20,278 nt of DNA from a virus. Both the position numbers and the translations under genes were made by a program. Each line of letters starts with the position of its first letter. Within the stretch, counting starts at the first letter, position 1. Below are positions 8,814 through 18,620 of the stretch, piece by piece. The DNA lies in IMG/VR virus record IMGVR_UViG_3300036939_000027, positions 1-20,278 of that record; one strand, 5' to 3'. The notes under the pieces were generated by a model, which was not told the origin of the DNA, did no database searches, and was given only the letters and a program-made list of their open reading frames with translations.

Positions 8814-11224
8814 GAGGAGCACCTCGGGCACCCGTCGAGCTTGCCGACCCCGATGCCGTGCCAGGGCTGGGAGCAGGTGCCGCAGATCCGCCACTGACCC
8901 CGCGAGTGGTGGCTCCCCGGACGACCGCACGGGCAGTCGTCCGGGGTGGTGAACCGGAGCAGTCCTTCGACGACGGGGATCGAGCTGGGGAGCCCGCTCT
9001 CCGTGCTCAGGAGGTGGTTCCCCGGTTCCCCACCCTCATAAAGGGGTGGGGAACCGGTGAACCGGTCTCCGGCGTTCCCCGGGGAACCGGTGGGGAACCG
9101 GTGGGGAACCGGTGAACCGGGGTCCGTGAGGGTGAAGTACCGGCCGTTGTTGGGCCCCGGGGAGCCCATGATCAACCGCTGCTCCTCCAGCCGGTCGAAG
9201 GTGGCTTCCATGTCCCGGCGAGAGGGGATCTGGGCCCCCTCCTCCTTCTTGAGCCGGGACAGGTGCGTCCAGGCGGCATTGCGCGTCCAGCCCGGCAGGG
9301 TCTCCCCCTTGGCGCCGACGGGCGCCGCCTCCCGCAGCACGCCCATGACGACGGGGGACCAACGGGCCGTGGCGCCCTCCTCCTTGGCGTCCTTGCGGTT
9401 GCCCTCGACGTAGGACAGGCGCCGGCTGGCCGGGTCGTACTCCAGCCGGCCTTCTGCCACCTCGACGTCACGCCCGTAGGCGGCGAAGAACCGGGGCGCC
9501 GCCGGGTCGATGGGCCCGTCGCCGTCCCGCAGGCGGGTGATCCGCCACTCAGCGTCCGGCCAGTCCCGCAGGCGGGAGTCGCCGCGTGAGCGCTCCCCGT
9601 CGTGTCCCGTGTGGTGGACGACGAGCGCCTCCGGCACGTCGGCCTCAGCGAGCAGGGCATCGAACTGCACCAGGAAGCGCCCGGCGTCCTTGTCCTCGGA
9701 CAGCCCCAGGGCGTCGAGCACGGGGCGCAGGCAGTCGAAGATGACGACGTCGGCGCCGATCTCGCGGATCTGGGCGGCCCACTGGGAGCGCACGGTCGGG
9801 TCGAGCAGGTCGAAGGTGCCGACCTTGCCGCGCATGGGGACTACGACGACCTGGCCGACGTTGCCGATCCCCTGGTCGCGGAGCCAGCGACGGAGGTTGC
9901 GCTCGTCCAGCTCGTTGTCGAGCAGGACCACCTTGCGCTCGACGGGCGCCGTGGCGAAGGCGCCCAGGAACGGGTGCCCGTCGACCAGTGAGCGGATCAG
10001 GTTGCCGACGGTCGTCGACTTCCCGGCCTTGAACGCCGCCGCCAGGAGCACGCGCCCGCCCGCGGGCCACAGGTCGTCGATCCGGTGCGTGGCCGGGTCG
10101 TCCTCAACGGCCAGGAAGGAGCCCAGGTCGACGAAGACCGGCGGGGCAAGCTCGGCCTGTTGCTCCTTGCGGAAGGCGCGGGCGGCCAGGTCCTTGATCC
10201 GCAGCGCCTCGACCTGGGCGGCCACGGCGCGGTTGCGGGCCAGGTCGGCTTCGAGGGCGGCGTCGGTGGCGTCAGCCTCGTCGAGGGGCTGACCGTACTC
10301 CGGCCGCAACGGCGTGACGTTGCTCGGCAGGTCCGGGAAGGTCGCCTCGACCAGATCCACCGGCGCCGGCGTGTACCGGCGCCAGACGTCGTCGAGGGTG
10401 GCCGCCCTGGCCTCCTCCTCGCTCCAGTAGTAGTCGCACGTCGACCCGGGGCCCGGCTGCTCGCAGTCCGCCCAGCGGCGCCGCCACAGCTCCAAGGCCT
10501 CCTCGTAGCTCAGGTTCCGGTCGCGCAGGCGGCCGGCGTAGCTGACGAGGGCGTGGTGGCGCTGGCCGCTGGGGATCGGGCCCGTGTGCCTGCTGTCGAC
10601 CGTCGTCGTCGCTGGGCCCGGGGCGGTCGGCGCCTTCGAGCCGATGGCCTCGACGACCAGCTCTGCCAGGGCCTGCCCACTGTCGTCCTCGTCGATGCCG
10701 TCGAGGTCGGGCTCGACCAGCCAGACGTAGGGCGCCGGCTCGCCGGTGACCTTCGAGATCCGCACGGTCGGGGCGATGAAGGCGAAGCCCCGCCCGGCCT
10801 GCTCGATCCGCCCGTCGCGCCCGCCCTTGACGTCGAGGCCGGGGCGCACGCCGTCGCGGCTGCCGGCGTGCAGCCGAGCAACGAAGTCGTGCGTCCCGCC
10901 CGAGGGCGTCGCCGCCCGGCCGTAGCTGCGCGGCCAGAGCCCCGCGGCCCTGAGGCCCGCCACGGTCTCGTCCCCGCCGTTGCGGGGGTCGACGTCGAGC
11001 AGGTCCATCCGGGCGCCCATGACGGCGCACAGGGCGTCCCCGGGGCGCCAGGTGTCCACGACGGCGCGGTTCGGCTGAGTGAGCTGCCATCGGGGCGGGA
11101 GCTTGAAGCCCAGCGGGGAGCCCGGGTCGGCCTTCGCCACGAAGATGGGCACGCCCCAGTCGGCCAGCCGGCGCGCGATGTCCAGGTCGGCGTCGGTGGG
11201 CTCGATCTTCGGTGCAGCACTCAC
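8810..11224 (-). CDS. Primase-polymerase/helicase replication protein
   Basis: This 804-residue protein combines an N-terminal prim-pol domain (about 10-200) with a RecA/RepA-type ATPase (about 365-600). In the prim-pol part, 'LLDVDPRNGGDE' near 75-86 gives the metal-binding Asp-x-Asp, 'TPSGGTHDF' near 106-114 is the second motif, and 'GRGFAFIAPTVR' near 144-155 the third. The ATPase shows Walker A 'AAFKAGKST' near 396-404, Walker B 'GADVVIFD' near 490-497 and 'LVVHHTG' near 534-540. A winged-helix-like segment, a linker encoded by tandem DNA repeats, and a Cys-rich zinc ribbon ('CPCGRPGSHH', 'CGTCSQPWHG', 'CPRCSS') end the protein. GTG start has AAGGAG upstream. It would open and prime the phage origin; such fusions are typical of actinophages and integrative plasmids. 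Confidence 0.93.
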   Translation of the reverse strand: MSAAPKIEPTDADLDIARRLADWGVPIFVAKADPGSPLGFKLPPRWQLTQPNRAVVDTWRPGDALCAVMGARMDLLDVDPRNGGDETVAGLRAAGLWPRSYGRAATPSGGTHDFVARLHAGSRDGVRPGLDVKGGRDGRIEQAGRGFAFIAPTVRISKVTGEPAPYVWLVEPDLDGIDEDDSGQALAELVVEAIGSKAPTAPGPATTTVDSRHTGPIPSGQRHHALVSYAGRLRDRNLSYEEALELWRRRWADCEQPGPGSTCDYYWSEEEARAATLDDVWRRYTPAPVDLVEATFPDLPSNVTPLRPEYGQPLDEADATDAALEADLARNRAVAAQVEALRIKDLAARAFRKEQQAELAPPVFVDLGSFLAVEDDPATHRIDDLWPAGGRVLLAAAFKAGKSTTVGNLIRSLVDGHPFLGAFATAPVERKVVLLDNELDERNLRRWLRDQGIGNVGQVVVVPMRGKVGTFDLLDPTVRSQWAAQIREIGADVVIFDCLRPVLDALGLSEDKDAGRFLVQFDALLAEADVPEALVVHHTGHDGERSRGDSRLRDWPDAEWRITRLRDGDGPIDPAAPRFFAAYGRDVEVAEGRLEYDPASRRLSYVEGNRKDAKEEGATARWSPVVMGVLREAAPVGAKGETLPGWTRNAAWTHLSRLKKEEGAQIPSRRDMEATFDRLEEQRLIMGSPGPNNGRYFTLTDPGSPVPHRFPTGSPGNAGDRFTGSPPLYEGGEPGNHLLSTESGLPSSIPVVEGLLRFTTPDDCPCGRPGSHHSRGQWRICGTCSQPWHGIGVGKLDGCPRCSS
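9022..9120. repeat. Iteron-like repeats and perfect hairpin inside the primase gene
   Basis: GGGGAACCGGT occurs at 9048-9058 and in three perfect head-to-tail copies at 9081-9091, 9092-9102 and 9103-9113, followed by partial GAACCGG copies (9059-9066, 9114-9120). Upstream, CCGGTTCCCCACCC (9022-9035) pairs perfectly with 9044-9057 around an 8-base AT-richer loop (TCATAAAG). The 11-base period is close to one DNA turn. Such phased repeats inside a replication-initiator gene are a common form of phage origin. They encode a Gly/Ser/Pro/Arg linker between the helicase and zinc ribbon. Confidence 0.6.
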
Positions 11225-12654: not shown

Positions 12655-13904
12655 GCCGCCTCCTGCTTGTCCTCGACGGTGACCAGGCCGCCGGCCACGA
12701 GCACGCCGCGGGCCAGCTCGGCCACCCGGACGGCGGCGATCTGGTTCAGCCATGCCGGCCACGGGTCCAGGTCGGCGTCGGCGTGCCACATGGCCCGGAT
12801 CTCGTCGCCGGTCCGCGCGGCGGCGATGCGTGCCACCCGCGGGTCGTTGCTCTCGGGCAGCTCGTCCACGGCGTCGAGGGTGGGGACGGCGCCGCCGGGG
12901 ACGTGGCGCACCAGCAGGTTCTTCGGCTTGGCGTACGAGCGCCAGGCGCGCGCCTCCGTGATGAGCTTCGCCACCGTGCGCCACGCCTTGGCGATCTTGA
13001 CCCAGGAGACCTCACAGGTCCCGTCGCCCGGGAGCCGGACGACGAGGGCCCAGGCCTGGTCCACCTCGAAGGGCCGGGGCTGCCAGCGGTTCACGGGGTC
13101 GTAGGGCGTGCAGTGGACGTACGTGGCGAGCTGCTTCGCCAGCTTGTCCGGGTAGGCCGTGGCCGACGTGCCGGTCTTCAGGTCAAGGATGTAGTTGCGG
13201 CCCTGGTAGTGCACGATCCGGTCCCAGGTGCCGCCGACCTTCAGGTCCGGGTTGGCCCCGAAGCGTTCGATCTCGACGATCTCGAAGTCGCCGGTCTCGA
13301 TCGCGTAGGCGTGCAGATCCTCGACGGCCTGCTTGCGCGCAACGTCGAGGTCCACCTCCCGGCATGGCCGCATGGCGGCGGCGTACTGCTGGAAGGCCCA
13401 GTCGATCCCGGCCACGATCTGCTCCGGCGACCGCTGGCGCCCGGCCCGGTCGAAGGCCTCCGTCACGTGGTGCATGAGGGTGCCCCAGAGCGAAGCCTCC
13501 TCGACGCCGGCCGCGACCTTGAGCTGATCGACGGTGTTCCAGAGCAGCTTGCGCAGGGGCTCGACGCCGGCCTTCTTCTCCTCCTCCGTCGGCTCGTGTG
13601 CCTTGATCACGTAGTAGTCCTCTTCAGCCTCGGGGGCGTCGAGGCGGTCGAAGCAGACGGCGGCGTTGAGCACGAGATCCGGACGGCGGATGGCCCCCAG
13701 GAGGACGTGCGCCTCCTTCCACTTCGTGATGCCCTCGCCGTCCTCCAGGTCGTCGACAAAGGACGTCACGCGGGAGTACCAGACGAGCTTGTCCTCGCCC
13801 GGCGGGATGACGCCGGGGCGCTGCTGGTCGCCGTACCCGCGGGGGACCTTGTACGGGTCGACCTCGGCCGGCAGCAGACCCGGGACGCTGGGGGCGCCGG
13901 TCAT
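12651..13904 (-). CDS. Cas4/RecB-like PD-(D/E)XK nuclease
   Basis: This 417-residue protein carries the RecB-family nuclease motifs in the right order: His145/His146 in 'GTLMHHVTEAF', Asp228 in 'GGTWDRIVHY', the core 'YILDLKTG' with Asp241 and Lys243, and 'KQLATYVH' near 257-264. These proteins are commonly called Cas4-family exonucleases in actinophage annotation, but no CRISPR component is present here. It probably works with the SSB-like and RuvC-like proteins in phage recombination or replication end processing. The ATG overlaps the WhiB-like stop by ATGA. The N-terminal 140 residues and C-terminal 120 residues are outside the nuclease core and are not recognised. Confidence 0.88.
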   Translation of the reverse strand: MTGAPSVPGLLPAEVDPYKVPRGYGDQQRPGVIPPGEDKLVWYSRVTSFVDDLEDGEGITKWKEAHVLLGAIRRPDLVLNAAVCFDRLDAPEAEEDYYVIKAHEPTEEEKKAGVEPLRKLLWNTVDQLKVAAGVEEASLWGTLMHHVTEAFDRAGRQRSPEQIVAGIDWAFQQYAAAMRPCREVDLDVARKQAVEDLHAYAIETGDFEIVEIERFGANPDLKVGGTWDRIVHYQGRNYILDLKTGTSATAYPDKLAKQLATYVHCTPYDPVNRWQPRPFEVDQAWALVVRLPGDGTCEVSWVKIAKAWRTVAKLITEARAWRSYAKPKNLLVRHVPGGAVPTLDAVDELPESNDPRVARIAAARTGDEIRAMWHADADLDPWPAWLNQIAAVRVAELARGVLVAGGLVTVEDKQEAA

Positions 13905-14230
13905 GCCGCCATCACCTGCTGCTGCTGCCGGCGCTCGCGCAGGATCTCGCGGCGCTCATTCGGGGTCGTGCCCCCGCGCACGCCGAAGGTGTTCGGCCCC
14001 TCGACGGCGAGGGCGTCCTCCAGGCACTCGAAGCGCACGGGGCACCCGGAGACCTGGCAGAACTCCTTGGCCGTGCTGTAGCCGACCTGCACGTTCGCGC
14101 GGCCAGGGGGCGCGTCCTCGCCGGCCGGGTAGAAGGTCTCCGGGTCGACGTACTGGCACGCGGCCCGCTCGCGCCACTCGGGGTCGAGGTCCATGCGGTG
14201 CTCGGGAACGTGCTTCTTGAAGCCCATCAC
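13901..14230 (-). CDS. WhiB-family iron-sulfur regulator, divergent
   Basis: This 109-residue protein resembles the actinobacterial WhiB family, small regulators that bind a 4Fe-4S cluster and act on sigma-factor-bound RNA polymerase. Four cysteines are present: Cys25 in 'RAACQYVDPETFYP', Cys58 and Cys63 in 'EFCQVSGCPVRFEC', and Cys69. The turn motif 'FGVRGGTTPNERR' near 82-94 corresponds to G[VI]WGG but has Arg in place of Trp. The middle cysteines are separated by four residues rather than the usual two. Start is either GTG at 14230 (GTGA overlap) or ATG at 14227. Phage WhiB proteins are known to mimic and inhibit host WhiB (mycobacteriophage TM4). Confidence 0.9.
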   Translation of the reverse strand: MMGFKKHVPEHRMDLDPEWRERAACQYVDPETFYPAGEDAPPGRANVQVGYSTAKEFCQVSGCPVRFECLEDALAVEGPNTFGVRGGTTPNERREILRERRQQQQVMAA

Positions 14231-14809: not shown

Positions 14810-15016
14810 TCATGCCGGCACGGCCAGCTCGTCGTCGACCCCGAGGGGGACGACCTTGTTCGCGTCGATGAAGCGCTCCACCTCGTCCGGCTTGAAGAGG
14901 AGCGGCGAGCGCACCCCTCCGGGCTGGTAGGCGGTTAGGGCTCCGACGGCGATGTACCGGCGCACGGTGCGCTCCGACTTGCGGAGGCGGGCTCGGACTT
15001 CGTCGAGCGTGAGCAT
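14810..15016 (-). CDS. Excisionase-like small helix-turn-helix protein
   Basis: This 68-residue protein is a single MerR/excisionase-type HTH: 'MLTLDEVRARLRKSERTVRR' at the start gives the two recognition helices, 'YIAVGALTAYQPGG' the wing, and 'LLFKPDEVERFIDA' the closing helix. It is transcribed divergently from the repressor and is the first gene of the leftward early operon, the position of Cro- or Xis-type proteins. The ATG at 15016 has AGGAGGGG 12-13 bases upstream; a TTG two codons earlier (15022) would have better spacing. It could be an excisionase or a transcriptional antagonist of the repressor; sequence alone does not separate these. Confidence 0.82.
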   Translation of the reverse strand: MLTLDEVRARLRKSERTVRRYIAVGALTAYQPGGVRSPLLFKPDEVERFIDANKVVPLGVDDELAVPA

Positions 15017-15051
15017 GTCCAAGGGGGTGCCCCTCCTTCCGAGTGGCTCTG

Positions 15052-15083
15052 TGTCCGACCGTGTCCGCGGATGTCCGCAGATG
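15052..15083. repeat. Helically phased 10-bp repeats upstream of the excisionase-like gene
   Basis: TGTCCG begins at 15052, 15062 and 15072, exactly ten bases apart, with a fourth weaker copy TGACCG at 15082. They lie between the leftward promoter and the HTH gene. The regular spacing places each copy on the same face of DNA, as in arrays bound by excisionase or other small HTH proteins. Binding is inferred. Confidence 0.5.
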
Positions 15084-15101
15084 ACCGGCGTTGTCAGTAG
15101 G

Positions 15102-15127
15102 GCCACTCTGGCAGGCCACTTTGGGCC
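15102..15127. promoter_or_regulatory. Two repressor operator-like sites on the leftward early promoter
   Basis: GCCACTCTGG (15102-15111) and GCCACTTTGG (15115-15124) are tandem copies of the core that recurs at 15255 and 18348. They cover the -10 and spacer of the candidate leftward promoter. Further GGCC-containing variants follow (GGCCACTAGAGG at 15134, GTGGCCC at 15154, GTGGGCC at 15174). Confidence 0.6.
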
Positions 15128-15133
15128 AGTCAA
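15105..15133 (-). promoter_or_regulatory. Candidate leftward early promoter
   Basis: On the minus strand TTGACT (15133-15128) and CAGAGT (15110-15105) are separated by 17 bases. The predicted start is near 15098, about 80 bases before the excisionase-like gene. The -35 is strong and the -10 weak. Operator-like sequences lie over the spacer and -10. Confidence 0.5.
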
Positions 15134-15233
15134 GGCCACTAGAGGATGAATTTGTGGCCCATCGTAGGCCGGAGTGGGCCATCCCCCGAACGGACGACTG
15201 CACGCTGTCGATCGCTACAGGGAGTCACCACGC

Positions 15234-15262
15234 TTGCCCTACGTGGCCGAATGGGCCACTCT
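15234..15262 (+). promoter_or_regulatory. Possible weak promoter of the repressor gene
   Basis: TTGCCC (15234-15239) and CACTCT (15257-15262) are 17 bases apart and point to the repressor GTG at 15302. Both boxes are far from consensus. The operator-like site at 15255-15269 overlaps the -10, which would fit autoregulation. Confidence 0.3.
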
Positions 15263-15274
15263 GGGCCACATTGG
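15255..15274. promoter_or_regulatory. Repressor operator-like site before the repressor gene
   Basis: GCCACTCTGGGCCAC (15255-15269) is an exact reverse complement of the sequence at 18348-18362, and an overlapping second core GCCACATTGG follows at 15265-15274, ten bases on. It lies 30-45 bases before the repressor start. Confidence 0.65.
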
Positions 15275-15301
15275 AGCCACGGGGACCTAGGAGGGGCACA
15301 A

Positions 15302-15736
15302 GTGGAAGATCACGAGAGGCTGGCGCGAGCGCAGGAGGCGGTGCGCAAGGCCGTGAAGCACCGCCAGGTCGAGCTAGGCCTGACGCGCGACCAGATCGCA
15401 GATGACGGCGGCGTGCCGCTGCGCACGGTCGGCCGGTTCCTGTCCGAGGGTGTCTGGCCCCGGCCGCCGGCCCTGCGGGGCATCGCTCGCGGGCTCGGGT
15501 GGCCGCCCGACGAGCTGGAGGTGCGGCTGAAGCGGGAGCTGAACGCGCTCCAGCTCTCGGACCTGACGAGCAGCGTGCAGAACGTGATCGTCGTCGACTT
15601 CGGCCCGGACGGGCTCGACGGCCTGGCGCCGGAAGAGGTGCGCGAGCTTCAGGCCGGCATCCAGGCCGCGGGCCTGCGGCTGAAGAACGAGATCAAGGCA
15701 CGCACGCCGGTCGCCGGATTTCAGGTCGCGTCGTGA
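15302..15736 (+). CDS. Putative immunity repressor (HTH protein)
   Basis: This 144-residue protein has an N-terminal HTH domain about residues 8-75: 'VELGLTRDQIADDGGVPLRT' forms the two core helices, with 'VGRFLSEGVWPRPPALRGIA' continuing into the next helices. The C-terminal half (about 76-144) has a hydrophobic strand 'VQNVIVVDFGPDGL' and a helical segment, likely for dimerisation. No Ser-Lys autoprotease motif of LexA/CI type is seen, so induction would not be by self-cleavage. GTG start with AGGAGGGG 6 bases upstream. It is divergent from the early operon and flanked by repeated operator-like sites, the classical place for a lysogeny repressor. Confidence 0.75.
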   Translation: MEDHERLARAQEAVRKAVKHRQVELGLTRDQIADDGGVPLRTVGRFLSEGVWPRPPALRGIARGLGWPPDELEVRLKRELNALQLSDLTSSVQNVIVVDFGPDGLDGLAPEEVRELQAGIQAAGLRLKNEIKARTPVAGFQVAS

Positions 15737-16389
15737 ACCGAGTCCGTAGCGCCTGGGAGAACCGGCCGGTCTGGCTGGAGTGGCCGGAGTTCCGCGGGCT
15801 CCGGCGCATGCGCCCGGCCGCCGTGATGACGAACAGCGCCGCCGTCCTGGGCACGGTCGCCGTGCTGGTGACGGGCTTCTTCCTGGTGCTCGGGCTCCAG
15901 TGGGTGCACAGCACGCCCTCGACGAGCGCCGACGACGTCATCCCCCCGGCGGCCGAAGCGGCGCCCGCCGGCAAGGCGCCGGCTCCTCGGCGGCCGGCGC
16001 CGTCTCCCACCGGCGCGCCGCGCACCCCGAAGCCATGGCCCGGCATCGGGGCGGGCGGCTACGACCAGTGGATTCAGCCGGCCGACCCGGGCGAGTACGA
16101 CGGCCCCGCGCCGGTGCAGGTCGTCCAGCGCCCCGCCGGCAACGCGCCGGCCGCGCCGGCCAGCTCGACATCGGCCCGGCCCGGGACCCGGCCGCCCTCG
16201 ACGCCTCGCCCGGCCCAGCCGGCCCCGGGGACTTCCACCGGTTCCCCTGTGCCGGCCAGCCCGACGCCGGTACCGTCGGAGACAGACGAAGTCCGCCCCC
16301 CGACGGACGACGTCGCGGAGGTCGTCTGCCGGCTCCTGCCCACGGGCGTGGAGAAGTGCAAGCCCGCCAAGGGCGAGCGCACCGACTGA
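15733..16389 (+). CDS. Single-pass membrane protein with proline-rich tail, co-transcribed with the repressor
   Basis: This 218-residue protein starts at a GTG that overlaps the repressor stop (GTGA). A charged/aromatic N-terminus (to about 33) precedes one transmembrane helix (about 36-57, 'AAVLGTVAVLVTGFFLVLGL'). About 130 residues rich in Pro, Ala, Ser and Thr follow, probably spanning the cell wall, then a small C-terminal part with two cysteines ('VVCRLLPTGVEKCKPA'). The topology suggests an extracytoplasmic tail. As it would be expressed from the prophage, a superinfection-exclusion or surface-modifying role is plausible but unproven. Confidence 0.78.
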   Translation: MNRVRSAWENRPVWLEWPEFRGLRRMRPAAVMTNSAAVLGTVAVLVTGFFLVLGLQWVHSTPSTSADDVIPPAAEAAPAGKAPAPRRPAPSPTGAPRTPKPWPGIGAGGYDQWIQPADPGEYDGPAPVQVVQRPAGNAPAAPASSTSARPGTRPPSTPRPAQPAPGTSTGSPVPASPTPVPSETDEVRPPTDDVAEVVCRLLPTGVEKCKPAKGERTD

Positions 16390-16398
16390 AGACAGCCG

Positions 16399-16433
16399 AG
16401 AGCCCCGCCGCTTCCCCCGAGCGGCGGGGCTCT
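16399..16433. terminator. Terminator between converging operons
   Basis: Perfect 14-base arms AGAGCCCCGCCGCT (16399-16412) and AGCGGCGGGGCTCT (16420-16433) with a 7-base loop follow the membrane-protein stop by 9 bases and precede the end of the leftward small-gene cluster. Its symmetrical form and place between convergent genes suggest bidirectional use. No T-run follows. Confidence 0.8.
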
Positions 16434-16446
16434 GTCGTGTGCGGGC

Positions 16447-16656
16447 TCACTCTCCCGGGGGGATCTCCCTGCCCGTGAGCGCGTCGGTGACGACTTCGTC
16501 GTAGGGGTCGCCCAGGTCGAGGTGGTTCGCGCACTGGTGGCACAGACCGGCCTCCGACTGTTGCTGCGCCAGATCGACGGCGCTTTCGCGGTCCTCGGCC
16601 TCGACGGTGATGCTCTCGCTTGCGCTGTAGATCAGGCTCACGTGGTACTGCGGCAT
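16447..16656 (-). CDS. Small phage protein, beta-rich with a Cys-x-x-Cys pair
   Basis: This 69-residue protein begins 'MPQYHVSLIYSASESITVEA', a strand-turn-strand, then 'EDRESAVDLAQQQSE' (helix), then 'GLCHQCANHLDLGDPYDEVV'. The Cys-x-x-Cys pair may bind zinc or simply be an artefact of length. The ATG at 16656 has a GAGAGGACACC leader. It is the last gene of the leftward accessory group, just before the terminator. No function recognised. Confidence 0.72.
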   Translation of the reverse strand: MPQYHVSLIYSASESITVEAEDRESAVDLAQQQSEAGLCHQCANHLDLGDPYDEVVTDALTGREIPPGE

Positions 16657-16668
16657 GGCGGTGTCCTC

Positions 16669-16818
16669 TCAGGCGTGGATCGGGTGGGCGACTGGCTTCG
16701 GCCAGCTCCCGTCGGCGCACAGGGTCGCGCCGGTCTCGGGGTGAATCCAGCTCGCGCCATAGCTGGTCGGGCGAAGGGTCAGAGCGCCTCCGCAGGTGCA
16801 GGTGACGGGCTGGGTCAT
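16669..16818 (-). CDS. 49-residue small protein
   Basis: ATG at 16818, stop at 16671-16669. The protein begins 'MTQPVTCTCGGALTLRPTSY' and ends 'GSWPKPVAHPIHA'. It has three Cys (two in 'CTCGG', one in 'TLCADGSW'), so it may bind a metal. It lies 3 bases after the previous gene's stop and its stop lies just before the ribosome binding site of the next, in the packed style of the operon. A weak GGGGATCTG precedes the start. No family recognised. Confidence 0.55.
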   Translation of the reverse strand: MTQPVTCTCGGALTLRPTSYGASWIHPETGATLCADGSWPKPVAHPIHA

Positions 16819-16821
16819 GAC

Positions 16822-17100
16822 TCAGATCCCCAGTCGGGCGAAGTCGAGGGCCAGGGCGTCGCGGAGTTCATCCTGCGCCGGGGCGCCCACGAACCACATG
16901 AGAGCGTCGGCGGTCGCGGAGAGATCTGCGCTGCGCACGTCCATCACGGCGGCCATGTAGGCCCTGCATGACGTGCTGTCCCCCTCGAAGGGGACCGAGA
17001 AGTAGATGCGCTGGCGCTGGAGCGCGACGACGACCAGGCGCAGAAGGCGGTCGCGGCAGGTGCGGCAGGCGGGCTCAGCGTGGCTCGTGCTCGGGGGCAT
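16822..17100 (-). CDS. 92-residue small protein of the accessory operon
   Basis: The ATG at 17100 has the GAGAGGACAC ribosome-binding leader and is about 23 bases past a predicted transcription start. The N-terminus has 'EPACRTCRDRLLRLVVVALQ' (Cys-x-x-Cys at the head of a helix), the middle 'IYFSVPFEGDSTSC', and the C-terminus a helical 'DELRDALALDFARLGI'. It is soluble-looking and of unknown function. It heads a three-gene group ending at the terminator near 16.4 kb. Confidence 0.72.
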   Translation of the reverse strand: MPPSTSHAEPACRTCRDRLLRLVVVALQRQRIYFSVPFEGDSTSCRAYMAAVMDVRSADLSATADALMWFVGAPAQDELRDALALDFARLGI

Positions 17101-17129
17101 GACGTGTCCTCTCGTCGGGGCGTGTCCTA

Positions 17130-17158
17130 AGTATGGCATACGGCGTCTGCCTTTACAA
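17130..17158 (-). promoter_or_regulatory. Leftward promoter P-A with dyad
   Basis: On the minus strand TTGTAA (17158-17153) and CATACT (17135-17130) are exactly 17 bases apart, with an extended TGC just upstream of the -10. The -10 overlaps an 11-base dyad GTATGGCATAC (17131-17141). Nearly the same sequence occurs at 18319-18347. It precedes the 92-residue gene. Confidence 0.6.
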
Positions 17159-17263
17159 GCCCCTCCAGGGATCGAACAGGAGGATCAGGGCGACGACCAG
17201 GAGCGCGAGCGCCAGTACCACCTCCAGGGCCGCCTCGGCCTGGCGCAGGGTCGGCCGCCTCAC
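17153..17263 (-). CDS. 36-residue single-helix membrane peptide
   Basis: GTG at 17263-17261 overlaps the previous stop (GTGA), and the stop TAA at 17155-17153 lies inside the -35 of the next promoter. The peptide is 'VRRPTLRQAEAALEVVLALA' then a hydrophobic run to 'LFDPWRGL': a basic N-terminus plus one long transmembrane helix (about 12-30). Overlap with its neighbour supports expression. Function unknown; small hydrophobic peptides may be antiholin-like or membrane regulators. Confidence 0.5.
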   Translation of the reverse strand: MRRPTLRQAEAALEVVLALALLVVALILLFDPWRGL

Positions 17264-17541
17264 TGCGACAGGTCGGGGGCTTCGGGCACGTAGATGTCCC
17301 CCTCGCTGTCGACGTCGGGGACCTCGGCCAGGGCCCGACGGGGGCGACCGGGCTTGCCGGGGCGCGCGGCGTCGTGGGCGTCGATGGTCGACTTCAGCCA
17401 GAGCACGGCCTGGCCCTCCTGGAAGTCGGGTGCCGGCGCCCGCCCCCGGTGGACGTAGGCGAACCACGTTCGGCGCTTGATCCCGCGGCGCGTGGCGATC
17501 TCGTCGGCGTTCAGGTAGTCGTCGCGGTTGAAGCCGGTCAC
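17260..17541 (-). CDS. Small helix-turn-helix protein (AlpA/excisionase-like)
   Basis: This 93-residue protein starts at GTG 17541, chosen because AGGAGG lies 6 bases upstream. The HTH is 'YLNADEIATRRGIKRRTWF' followed by 'AYVHRGRAPAPDFQEG' and 'WLKSTIDAHDA', the pattern of MerR/HTH_17 domains. A basic 'RPGKPGRPRR' tract (AT-hook-like) and an acidic tail ('VPDVDSEGDIYVPEAPDLSQ' region) follow. It could bind the dyad shared by the two leftward promoters that flank it, or act as an excisionase. Confidence 0.78.
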   Translation of the reverse strand: MTGFNRDDYLNADEIATRRGIKRRTWFAYVHRGRAPAPDFQEGQAVLWLKSTIDAHDAARPGKPGRPRRALAEVPDVDSEGDIYVPEAPDLSQ

Positions 17542-17562
17542 GGGCTCCTCCTTCGGGGGGAA

Positions 17563-17590
17563 GCCCCCGGACCACATCAGGTCCGGGGGC
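17563..17590 (-). terminator. Perfect hairpin between the 236-residue gene and the HTH gene
   Basis: GCCCCCGGACC (17563-17573) and GGTCCGGGGGC (17580-17590) make an 11-bp perfect stem with a 6-base loop (ACATCA). It begins 11 bases after the stop of the upstream gene on the minus strand and ends before the AGGAGG of the next. No U-tract. Likely an attenuator or mRNA-stabilising hairpin. Confidence 0.55.
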
Positions 17591-17601
17591 CGGCGGGTGG
17601 G

Positions 17602-18312
17602 TCAGGACGGGTCGGTGAGCAGCCTCTCCGCGGGCACCGCAGCCCGGTAGATCCGCCCCTCGCTGGACGGCGTCGTGTAGGCGACCTGCACAGTGGTGCG
17701 GCCGATCTTCACGACGAGCCCGCGACGCATCCGGCCCATGCCGTGGACGTACACGACGTCACCGACGGCCGGCGCCGGCGCTCGGACCAGCTCGGCCGCA
17801 GGGGCGCTGCCGACCAGACGGACCACCTGGGCCCGGATGGCGTCGTCGGCGGCGATCAGTTCGGCACGCTTGCGGCCCCGGGCAGCCAGCTTGGCGATGT
17901 CGGCGTCCGTCCGGTCGGCCGAAGCCCAACCTCTGCTGGTGCGGACCTGGAGCCACGTGCGGTCCGGCTTCTCCAGCGCGGTCACGTCCTCGATCTTGAC
18001 GACCTGCACACGCTGGCCAGCGTGCTCCTCATCGTGCAGGACGGTGACGGTCCGGCCGTCGCGGTCGTCGTAGGCCCAGGGCATGGGGGCGGGGGTGGTC
18101 TCGGTCACGGCGTCCTCCGGGACGGGGGTCGGGGTGAAGGTGGCGGCGACGTCGGCGGTGGCCCAGTGCTTCCGGCCGGACGGGGTGTACCAGAAGGTCG
18201 TGATCCGCTCGGGAGCGTCCACGAACCAGTACTGGCGGGCCTCGCGGACGGTGCCGCTGGCGAGGGTGACGGTGCCGTCCTGCTGGGCCTCGGGCCGCTT
18301 CGTCGTCGTCAT
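17602..18312 (-). CDS. Unknown 236-residue early protein, probably leaderless
   Basis: The ATG at 18312 lies just 6 bases after the -10 (CATACT, 18324-18319), so the transcript would start at or next to the initiation codon, with no Shine-Dalgarno site. This is common in actinobacteria. The protein has a beta-strand-rich N-terminus ('GTVTLASGTVREARQYWFVD'), a charged helical middle ('TDADIAKLAARGRKRAELIA'), and a C-terminal SH3/KOW-like stretch 'VGDVVYVHGMGRMRRGLVVK'. No family recognised. A nucleic-acid-binding role is possible from the last domain. It is the first gene of the leftward accessory operon. Confidence 0.75.
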   Translation of the reverse strand: MTTTKRPEAQQDGTVTLASGTVREARQYWFVDAPERITTFWYTPSGRKHWATADVAATFTPTPVPEDAVTETTPAPMPWAYDDRDGRTVTVLHDEEHAGQRVQVVKIEDVTALEKPDRTWLQVRTSRGWASADRTDADIAKLAARGRKRAELIAADDAIRAQVVRLVGSAPAAELVRAPAPAVGDVVYVHGMGRMRRGLVVKIGRTTVQVAYTTPSSEGRIYRAAVPAERLLTDPS

Positions 18313-18318
18313 GCCCTA

Positions 18319-18347
18319 AGTATGGCATACGCCGTCTGCCATTGCAA
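18319..18347 (-). promoter_or_regulatory. Leftward promoter P-B with dyad
   Basis: On the minus strand TTGCAA (18347-18342) and CATACT (18324-18319) are 17 bases apart, with extended TGC. The same dyad GTATGGCATAC (18320-18330) overlaps the -10 as in the 17.1 kb promoter. The -35 abuts the 15-base operator (18348-18362). Confidence 0.65.
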
Positions 18348-18362
18348 GTGGCCCAGAGTGGC
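18348..18362. promoter_or_regulatory. Operator between divergent promoters
   Basis: GTGGCCCAGAGTGGC is the exact reverse complement of 15255-15269, before the repressor gene. It exactly fills the space between the two divergent -35 boxes (18342-18347 and 18363-18368), so one bound protein would contact both promoters. Confidence 0.7.
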
Positions 18363-18391
18363 TTGACCGTGACAGCGGCACCCCGTACGCT
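18363..18391 (+). promoter_or_regulatory. Rightward promoter for the plus-strand membrane operon
   Basis: TTGACC (18363-18368) and TACGCT (18386-18391) are 17 bases apart; transcription would start near 18398, about 34 bases before the HTH gene start. Weaker operator-like cores (GCCACATCG at 18393, ACCACATTCG, GCCACACGAG) follow downstream. Confidence 0.55.
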
Positions 18392-18431
18392 CGCCACATC
18401 GACCACATTCGCCACACGAGGGAGCCGACGT

Positions 18432-18620
18432 GTGTTGACCACGAAGCAGGCCGCCGCGCGGCTCAGGGTCTCCAGCGAGACCGTTCGCCGCTGGTACCGG
18501 GCCGGGATTCTCGACGGCAACCGGATGAACCCGACCGGACGTATCAAGATCCACGAGCAATCCGTCGAGCGGCTGCTCGCCAGAGTGAAACTCCCACCGA
18601 AGGAGGGGGAAAAGCAGTGA
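18432..18620 (+). CDS. BldC/excisionase-like HTH protein, first gene of the rightward operon
   Basis: This 62-residue protein is a compact MerR-type HTH: 'LTTKQAAARLRVSSETVRRW' gives the two main helices, then 'YRAGILDGNRMNPTGRIKIH' the wing, and 'EQSVERLLARV' the closing helix. The GTG at 18432 has GAGGGAG upstream; a TTG at 18435 is an alternative. It ends in GTGA overlap with the next gene. Such BldC-like proteins head transfer or replication operons in Streptomyces integrative elements and also serve as excisionases. Which role applies is not known. Confidence 0.8.
   Translation: MLTTKQAAARLRVSSETVRRWYRAGILDGNRMNPTGRIKIHEQSVERLLARVKLPPKEGEKQ

Follow-up and report, generated by a model that had tools for sequence, protein, structure and literature searches.

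A clustered direct-repeat motif very likely forms a shared early operator in a fragment of a high-GC phage

The window analyzed here is a virus record of 20,278 bases (IMG/VR record IMGVR_UViG_3300036939_000027; 72% GC) that covers a fragment of a high-GC phage, and the element in question is a short repeated motif, CCAGAGTGGCC, found in two of its intergenic regions. The left part of the window carries head and packaging genes, including that of the terminase large subunit. A leftward early operon holds the genes for an AAA primase/helicase, a Cas4/PD-DExK exonuclease, and a WhiB protein. The gene for a 144-amino acid (aa) HTH_3 protein (15302-15736, + strand) is transcribed divergently from this operon, with accessory operons to the right of it. 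No near match to the phage was found among 50,697 phage records, and the distant relatives of single window genes were mostly actinobacterial. The best explanation of the fragment is an actinobacterial, temperate phage, as part of an overall reading for and against which we see about equal weight.

The 144-aa protein is a candidate immunity repressor. It matched Pfam HTH_3 (E 5.7e-5) with 23.5 bits, just above the curated cut-off of 23, and gave weak matches to PHROG repressors, and no homologues of it were found in viral contigs, phages, plasmids, 395 class genomes, and 35 one-family genomes. Its stop codon is overlapped (GTGA) by the gene for a 218-aa protein (15733-16389), which has an N-terminal membrane segment, identified by eye, and a Pro-rich tail. 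No family match was found for the 218-aa protein, which is probably coexpressed with the 144-aa protein in lysogens.

Two genes near the repeats encode winged helix–turn–helix (HTH) proteins of the HTH_17 family, and both proteins scored above the Pfam cut-off. The leftward replication operon begins with the gene for XisL, a 68-aa HTH_17/excisionase-like protein (14810-15016, − strand) that matched HTH_17 with 33.8 bits (cut-off 27) and the excisionase family PHROG 66 with an E value of 2.6e-7. Likewise, the rightward membrane-protein operon begins with the gene for XisR, a 62-aa HTH_17/excisionase-BldC-like protein (18432-18620, + strand) that matched HTH_17 with 38.1 bits and TIGR01764 with 30.3 bits (cut-off 28.8). 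The closest solved structures to XisR were Pukovnik Xis (4j2n) and BldC (6ama/6amk), although these matches were weak. XisL and XisR are paralogues (35% identical in the alignment; BLASTP E 1e-6), and they are candidate alternative binders that were absent from an earlier note on this DNA, in which the 144-aa protein was the regulator named.

The 15-base sequence GCCACTCTGGGCCAC occurs exactly at 15255-15269 (+) and, as its exact reverse complement, at 18348-18362 (−), and its ten-base core is present at 15102 (GCCACTCTGG) and 15115 (GCCACTTTGG), as the earlier note had reported. However, the exact 15-mer pair is not significant alone, because 7.5 ± 3.5 such repeats are expected by chance in a 72% GC window of this kind (Markov shuffles). 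In IMG/VR, 26 stretches contained the 15-mer, and these copies appeared to lie within open reading frames on unrelated contigs; a 16-mer extension elsewhere in IMG/VR was likewise apparently coding and unrelated. The significant part is the local clustering of the motif rather than the identity of the 15-mer. Of 2080 hexamers, GCCACT/AGTGGC showed the strongest enrichment in the two intergenic regions (15018-15301 and 18313-18431), with seven of its 16 window copies in 403 intergenic bases that make up 2% of the window (P ~2e-9; ~4e-6 after Bonferroni correction).

A position weight matrix (PWM) was trained on seven sites and scored at 40,524 positions of the window. When each training site was left out in turn, it still ranked within the top 12 positions, and the matrix added two sites outside the training set (15037-15053 and 15119-15135). 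All of the nine resulting sites are intergenic, and no other position in the window scored as high. In 15 other phage-related loci, a matrix of this kind found no close motif pairs, only scattered hits. The motif is asymmetric, with opposite-strand scores of at most 4.3 compared with 15.1-18.2 on the forward strand, and no dyad symmetry of the kind expected for a CI-like palindromic operator was found by this opposite-strand scoring. Within each cluster, the sites share one strand and form head-to-tail direct repeats. The close spacings between sites were 13, 10, 10, 10, and 10 base pairs (bp), a regularity that was noticed only after the sites had been found, so that its P value is no more than indicative; because four of the five are exactly 10 bp, most neighboring units lie on the same side of the helix.

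A stricter promoter scan of the window found nothing, and a looser consensus (TTG-type −35, NANNNT −10) was then used, which gave 16 predicted promoters in the whole window, five of them plausibly placed. In the left region, operator site 1 (15037-15053, +; core GAGTGGC at 15043), which ranked eighth in the PWM although outside the training set, lies in the leader of the P_L operon in the orientation opposite to the P_L array. This array, O_L (15096-15145, −), comprises four sites (15096-15112, 15109-15125, 15119-15135, and 15129-15145) with cores at 15102, 15115, 15125, and 15135 and spacings of 13, 10, and 10 bp. O_L spans the predicted leftward early promoter P_L (15105-15133, −; TTGACT-17-CAGAGT) from upstream of the −35 box to the −10 box. 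O_rep (15249-15275, −) consists of two sites (15249-15265 and 15259-15275; cores at 15255 and 15265, 10 bp apart) over the −10 box and start of the predicted repressor promoter P_rep (15234-15262, +; TTGCCC-17-CACTCT), of which the −10 box is weak. A weaker third copy of the core adjoins O_rep at 15276.

In the right region, O_D (18342-18368, +) consists of two sites (18342-18358 and 18352-18368; cores at 18348 and 18358, 10 bp apart) at a predicted divergent promoter pair. The leftward accessory promoter (18319-18347, −; TTGCAA-17-CATACT) would drive the gene for a 236-aa protein (17602-18312), and the rightward promoter P_R (18363-18391, +; TTGACC-17-TACGCT) is directed toward XisR. The exact 15-mer at 18348-18362 is precisely the 15 bases that separate the −35 boxes of the divergent pair. 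Read in the direction of transcription, the sites at P_L and P_R, both of which are promoters of the TTGAC type, show AGTGGC. Between the P_R −10 box and the XisR start codon, three CCACA-containing units (CGCCACATC, GACCACATT, and CGCCACACG) were observed exactly 9 bp apart (18392-18418). The four sites listed in the earlier note were all recovered, and each is intergenic and on or beside predicted promoter boxes, as it had described; its count was too low, because the motif search that it had proposed, run over the 20-kb fragment, gave about nine sites, the nine top-scoring ones all lying in the two intergenic regions.

These results suggest that the nine sites are very likely a real shared early operator, on account of the motif statistics, the spacing, and the promoter coverage. 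The same motif is found at the predicted repressor promoter and at the predicted early promoters, as in a multisite immunity operator. The most likely role of the operator is the control of lysogeny; operators of this type are known from related phages, and the tandem arrangement here is unusual. Whether CCAGAGTGGCC is bound in the lysogen by the 144-aa HTH_3 protein is, in our judgment, evenly balanced. By its position the protein fits this role, and it is put somewhat ahead as the binder on account of the site that overlies P_rep and of how immunity regions are generally arranged. The earlier note had proposed a regulon in which this protein silences the leftward replication, leftward accessory, and rightward membrane operons; the common operator at the leftward early, repressor, and divergent promoters is upheld by motif statistics and promoter geometry, whereas the choice of the 144-aa protein as its binder is a positional one.

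In the proposed switch, the 144-aa protein would occupy the tandem, same-face motif copies in the lysogen, with one unit per 10 bp. Occupancy of P_L would turn off the leftward replication operon, occupancy of P_rep would provide negative autoregulation, and at the divergent promoter pair (accessory and rightward) the −35 ends would also be occupied. At O_D, where the sites adjoin both −35 boxes on their upstream sides, the sequence is compatible with repression as well as with activation. XisL, encoded first in the P_L operon, might compete for the same array in a Cro-like manner, as in lambda, and such competition may be a natural extension of the repressor reading. In lambda, CI and Cro are two competing proteins on one operator set that serves the repressor and early promoters, and these operators are palindromic. 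Here, the repressor and early promoters would likewise be served by one operator set, for which two proteins may compete, whereas inverted symmetry was not found in the motif.

Binding by the 144-aa protein is favored by the confinement of all nine sites to two intergenic regions, where they overlie P_L and P_rep and abut the −35 box of each divergent promoter. The annotated gene order of McProf, with a repressor followed by divergent Cro, excise, and replication genes, matches the order in the window, and McProf has an exonuclease and a helicase related to those of the window (~28-45% identity). No homologous regulatory region and no motif clusters were detected in distant loci that share the primase or terminase. 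Several points weigh against this binder. The operator sites are asymmetric direct repeats and not palindromes, whereas phage repressors of the HTH_3 type usually bind palindromes as dimers. With 0 homologues in the collections searched, conservation or covariation backing for the pairing of protein and operator is absent, and the AlphaFold model of the protein was too poor to use (predicted local distance difference test score, 46). Furthermore, an HTH_17 gene lies immediately downstream of each site region, a placement that suits binding by XisL and XisR equally well.

A distant third control point, which the earlier note had considered unusual, has precedents in characterized phages. The BPs repressor gp33 binds five regions, including an operator within P_R, another downstream of P_rep, and distant sites (PMC4557955), and the dispersed sites of L5 and phiC31 number 18-30 (PMC4557955, PMC5712189). 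The present layout resembles that of BPs in having an operator in the early promoter, a second past the repressor promoter, and additional sites at a distance (PMC4557955). However, BPs gp33 uses 12-bp palindromic half-sites and a multimer, whereas the sites here are asymmetric tandem direct repeats. In comparison with all of these systems (BPs, L5, and phiC31), the stacking of asymmetric units every 10 bp is particular to this window.

The strongest alternative, tentative but the best of the rivals, is that XisL and XisR bind the operator, polymerize head to tail on the 10-bp repeats like BldC, and autoregulate in a Cro-like manner, with the 144-aa protein working elsewhere or merely competing. 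On direct repeats of 9 bp, BldC is bound head to tail, and its filaments carry one protomer for each turn of the DNA (PMC5859096, PMC11963761); RdfS, which has the same fold, represses its own promoter (PMC11963761). The present sites are similar to these operators and to those of Xis proteins in being direct repeats ~9-10 bp apart, on the same strand, with HTH_17 genes adjoining, and precisely the two operons that are site-guarded and headed by TTGAC-type promoters begin with HTH_17 paralogues. The CCACA triplet in the P_R leader may provide further repeats at 9-bp intervals. With direct repeats one turn apart, the array would thus be no less suited to HTH_17 proteins than to an HTH_3 dimer. 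However, the known BldC consensus, AATTNNNN(C), is AT-rich (PMC5859096) and unlike the GTGGCC of CCAGAGTGGCC, and XisL and XisR are only putative binders. The excisionase model was matched only moderately by XisL (22.8 bits, under the cut-off of 28.8), and the site over P_rep is also the classical position for a repressor.

A related combination, in which the two BldC/excisionase-like paralogues assemble head to tail on the shared GC-rich operator and compete there with the HTH_3 repressor, appears rather unlikely. If true, a filament-forming protein would act as Cro for two operons 3 kb apart. The case bears on whether a classical repressor, filament-forming excisionase-like proteins, or both run a phage switch. 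From the operator, with its nine named sites, the immunity control circuit can be predicted for a phage without a close relative in the collections searched.

Less probable still are monomer sites of the L5 type, with one two-domain repressor on each asymmetric copy and an orientation tied to transcription. Cluster A phages such as L5 have ~24 dispersed 13-bp sites, which also block elongation, with the L5 consensus GGTGG(c/a)TGTCAAG (PMC5712189, PMC9283540). Like the present motif, the L5 operators and stoperators are asymmetric, contain GTGGC, lie at early promoters, and are oriented with transcription, and the sites at P_L and P_R do have one common orientation relative to transcription. 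However, the five-base resemblance may be due to chance, and the sites of L5 are dispersed, whereas no scattered stoperator-like sites were found in the 20-kb fragment, in which all nine lie in two control regions and are stacked 10 bp apart. The 144-aa protein is shorter than the 183-residue L5 repressor, and, in the search for homology of the L5 gp71 type, it had no match at all among the 50,697 phage records at E 1e-5; a comparison with L5-type repressors gave no match even at E 10, and none was found in the PDB.

That the repeats are chance or compositional repeats, or a result of promoter duplication, and form no operator is very improbable: although the 15-mer pair alone is within chance, the GC content is 72%, and a neighboring promoter is truly duplicated, the corrected hexamer enrichment (P ~4e-6), the leave-one-out ranks of 7-12 among 40,524 positions, and the absence of motif clusters from the 15 other loci argue against it.

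The duplicated promoter is a near-copy of the leftward accessory promoter, predicted at 17130-17158 (−; TTGTAA-17-CATACT), and 33 of 37 bases are identical between 17123-17159 and 18312-18348. Only the right copy (18312-18348) has an adjoining operator, and the operator-free near-duplicate 1.2 kb away constitutes a built-in control. The duplicated sequence was not found in IMG/VR. A near-palindrome, GTATGGCATAC, was observed over the −10 box of this 37-nucleotide leftward promoter, and the gene behind the right copy may be translated from a leaderless mRNA.

Two further features were observed in the window. The WhiB-type protein is encoded at 13901-14230, inside the early replication operon (Pfam Whib, E 9.5e-16). 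Iteron-like GGTGGGGAACCGGTGAACCGG repeats, both direct and inverted, are located at 9016-9126 within the primase/helicase gene and could possibly represent a replication origin.
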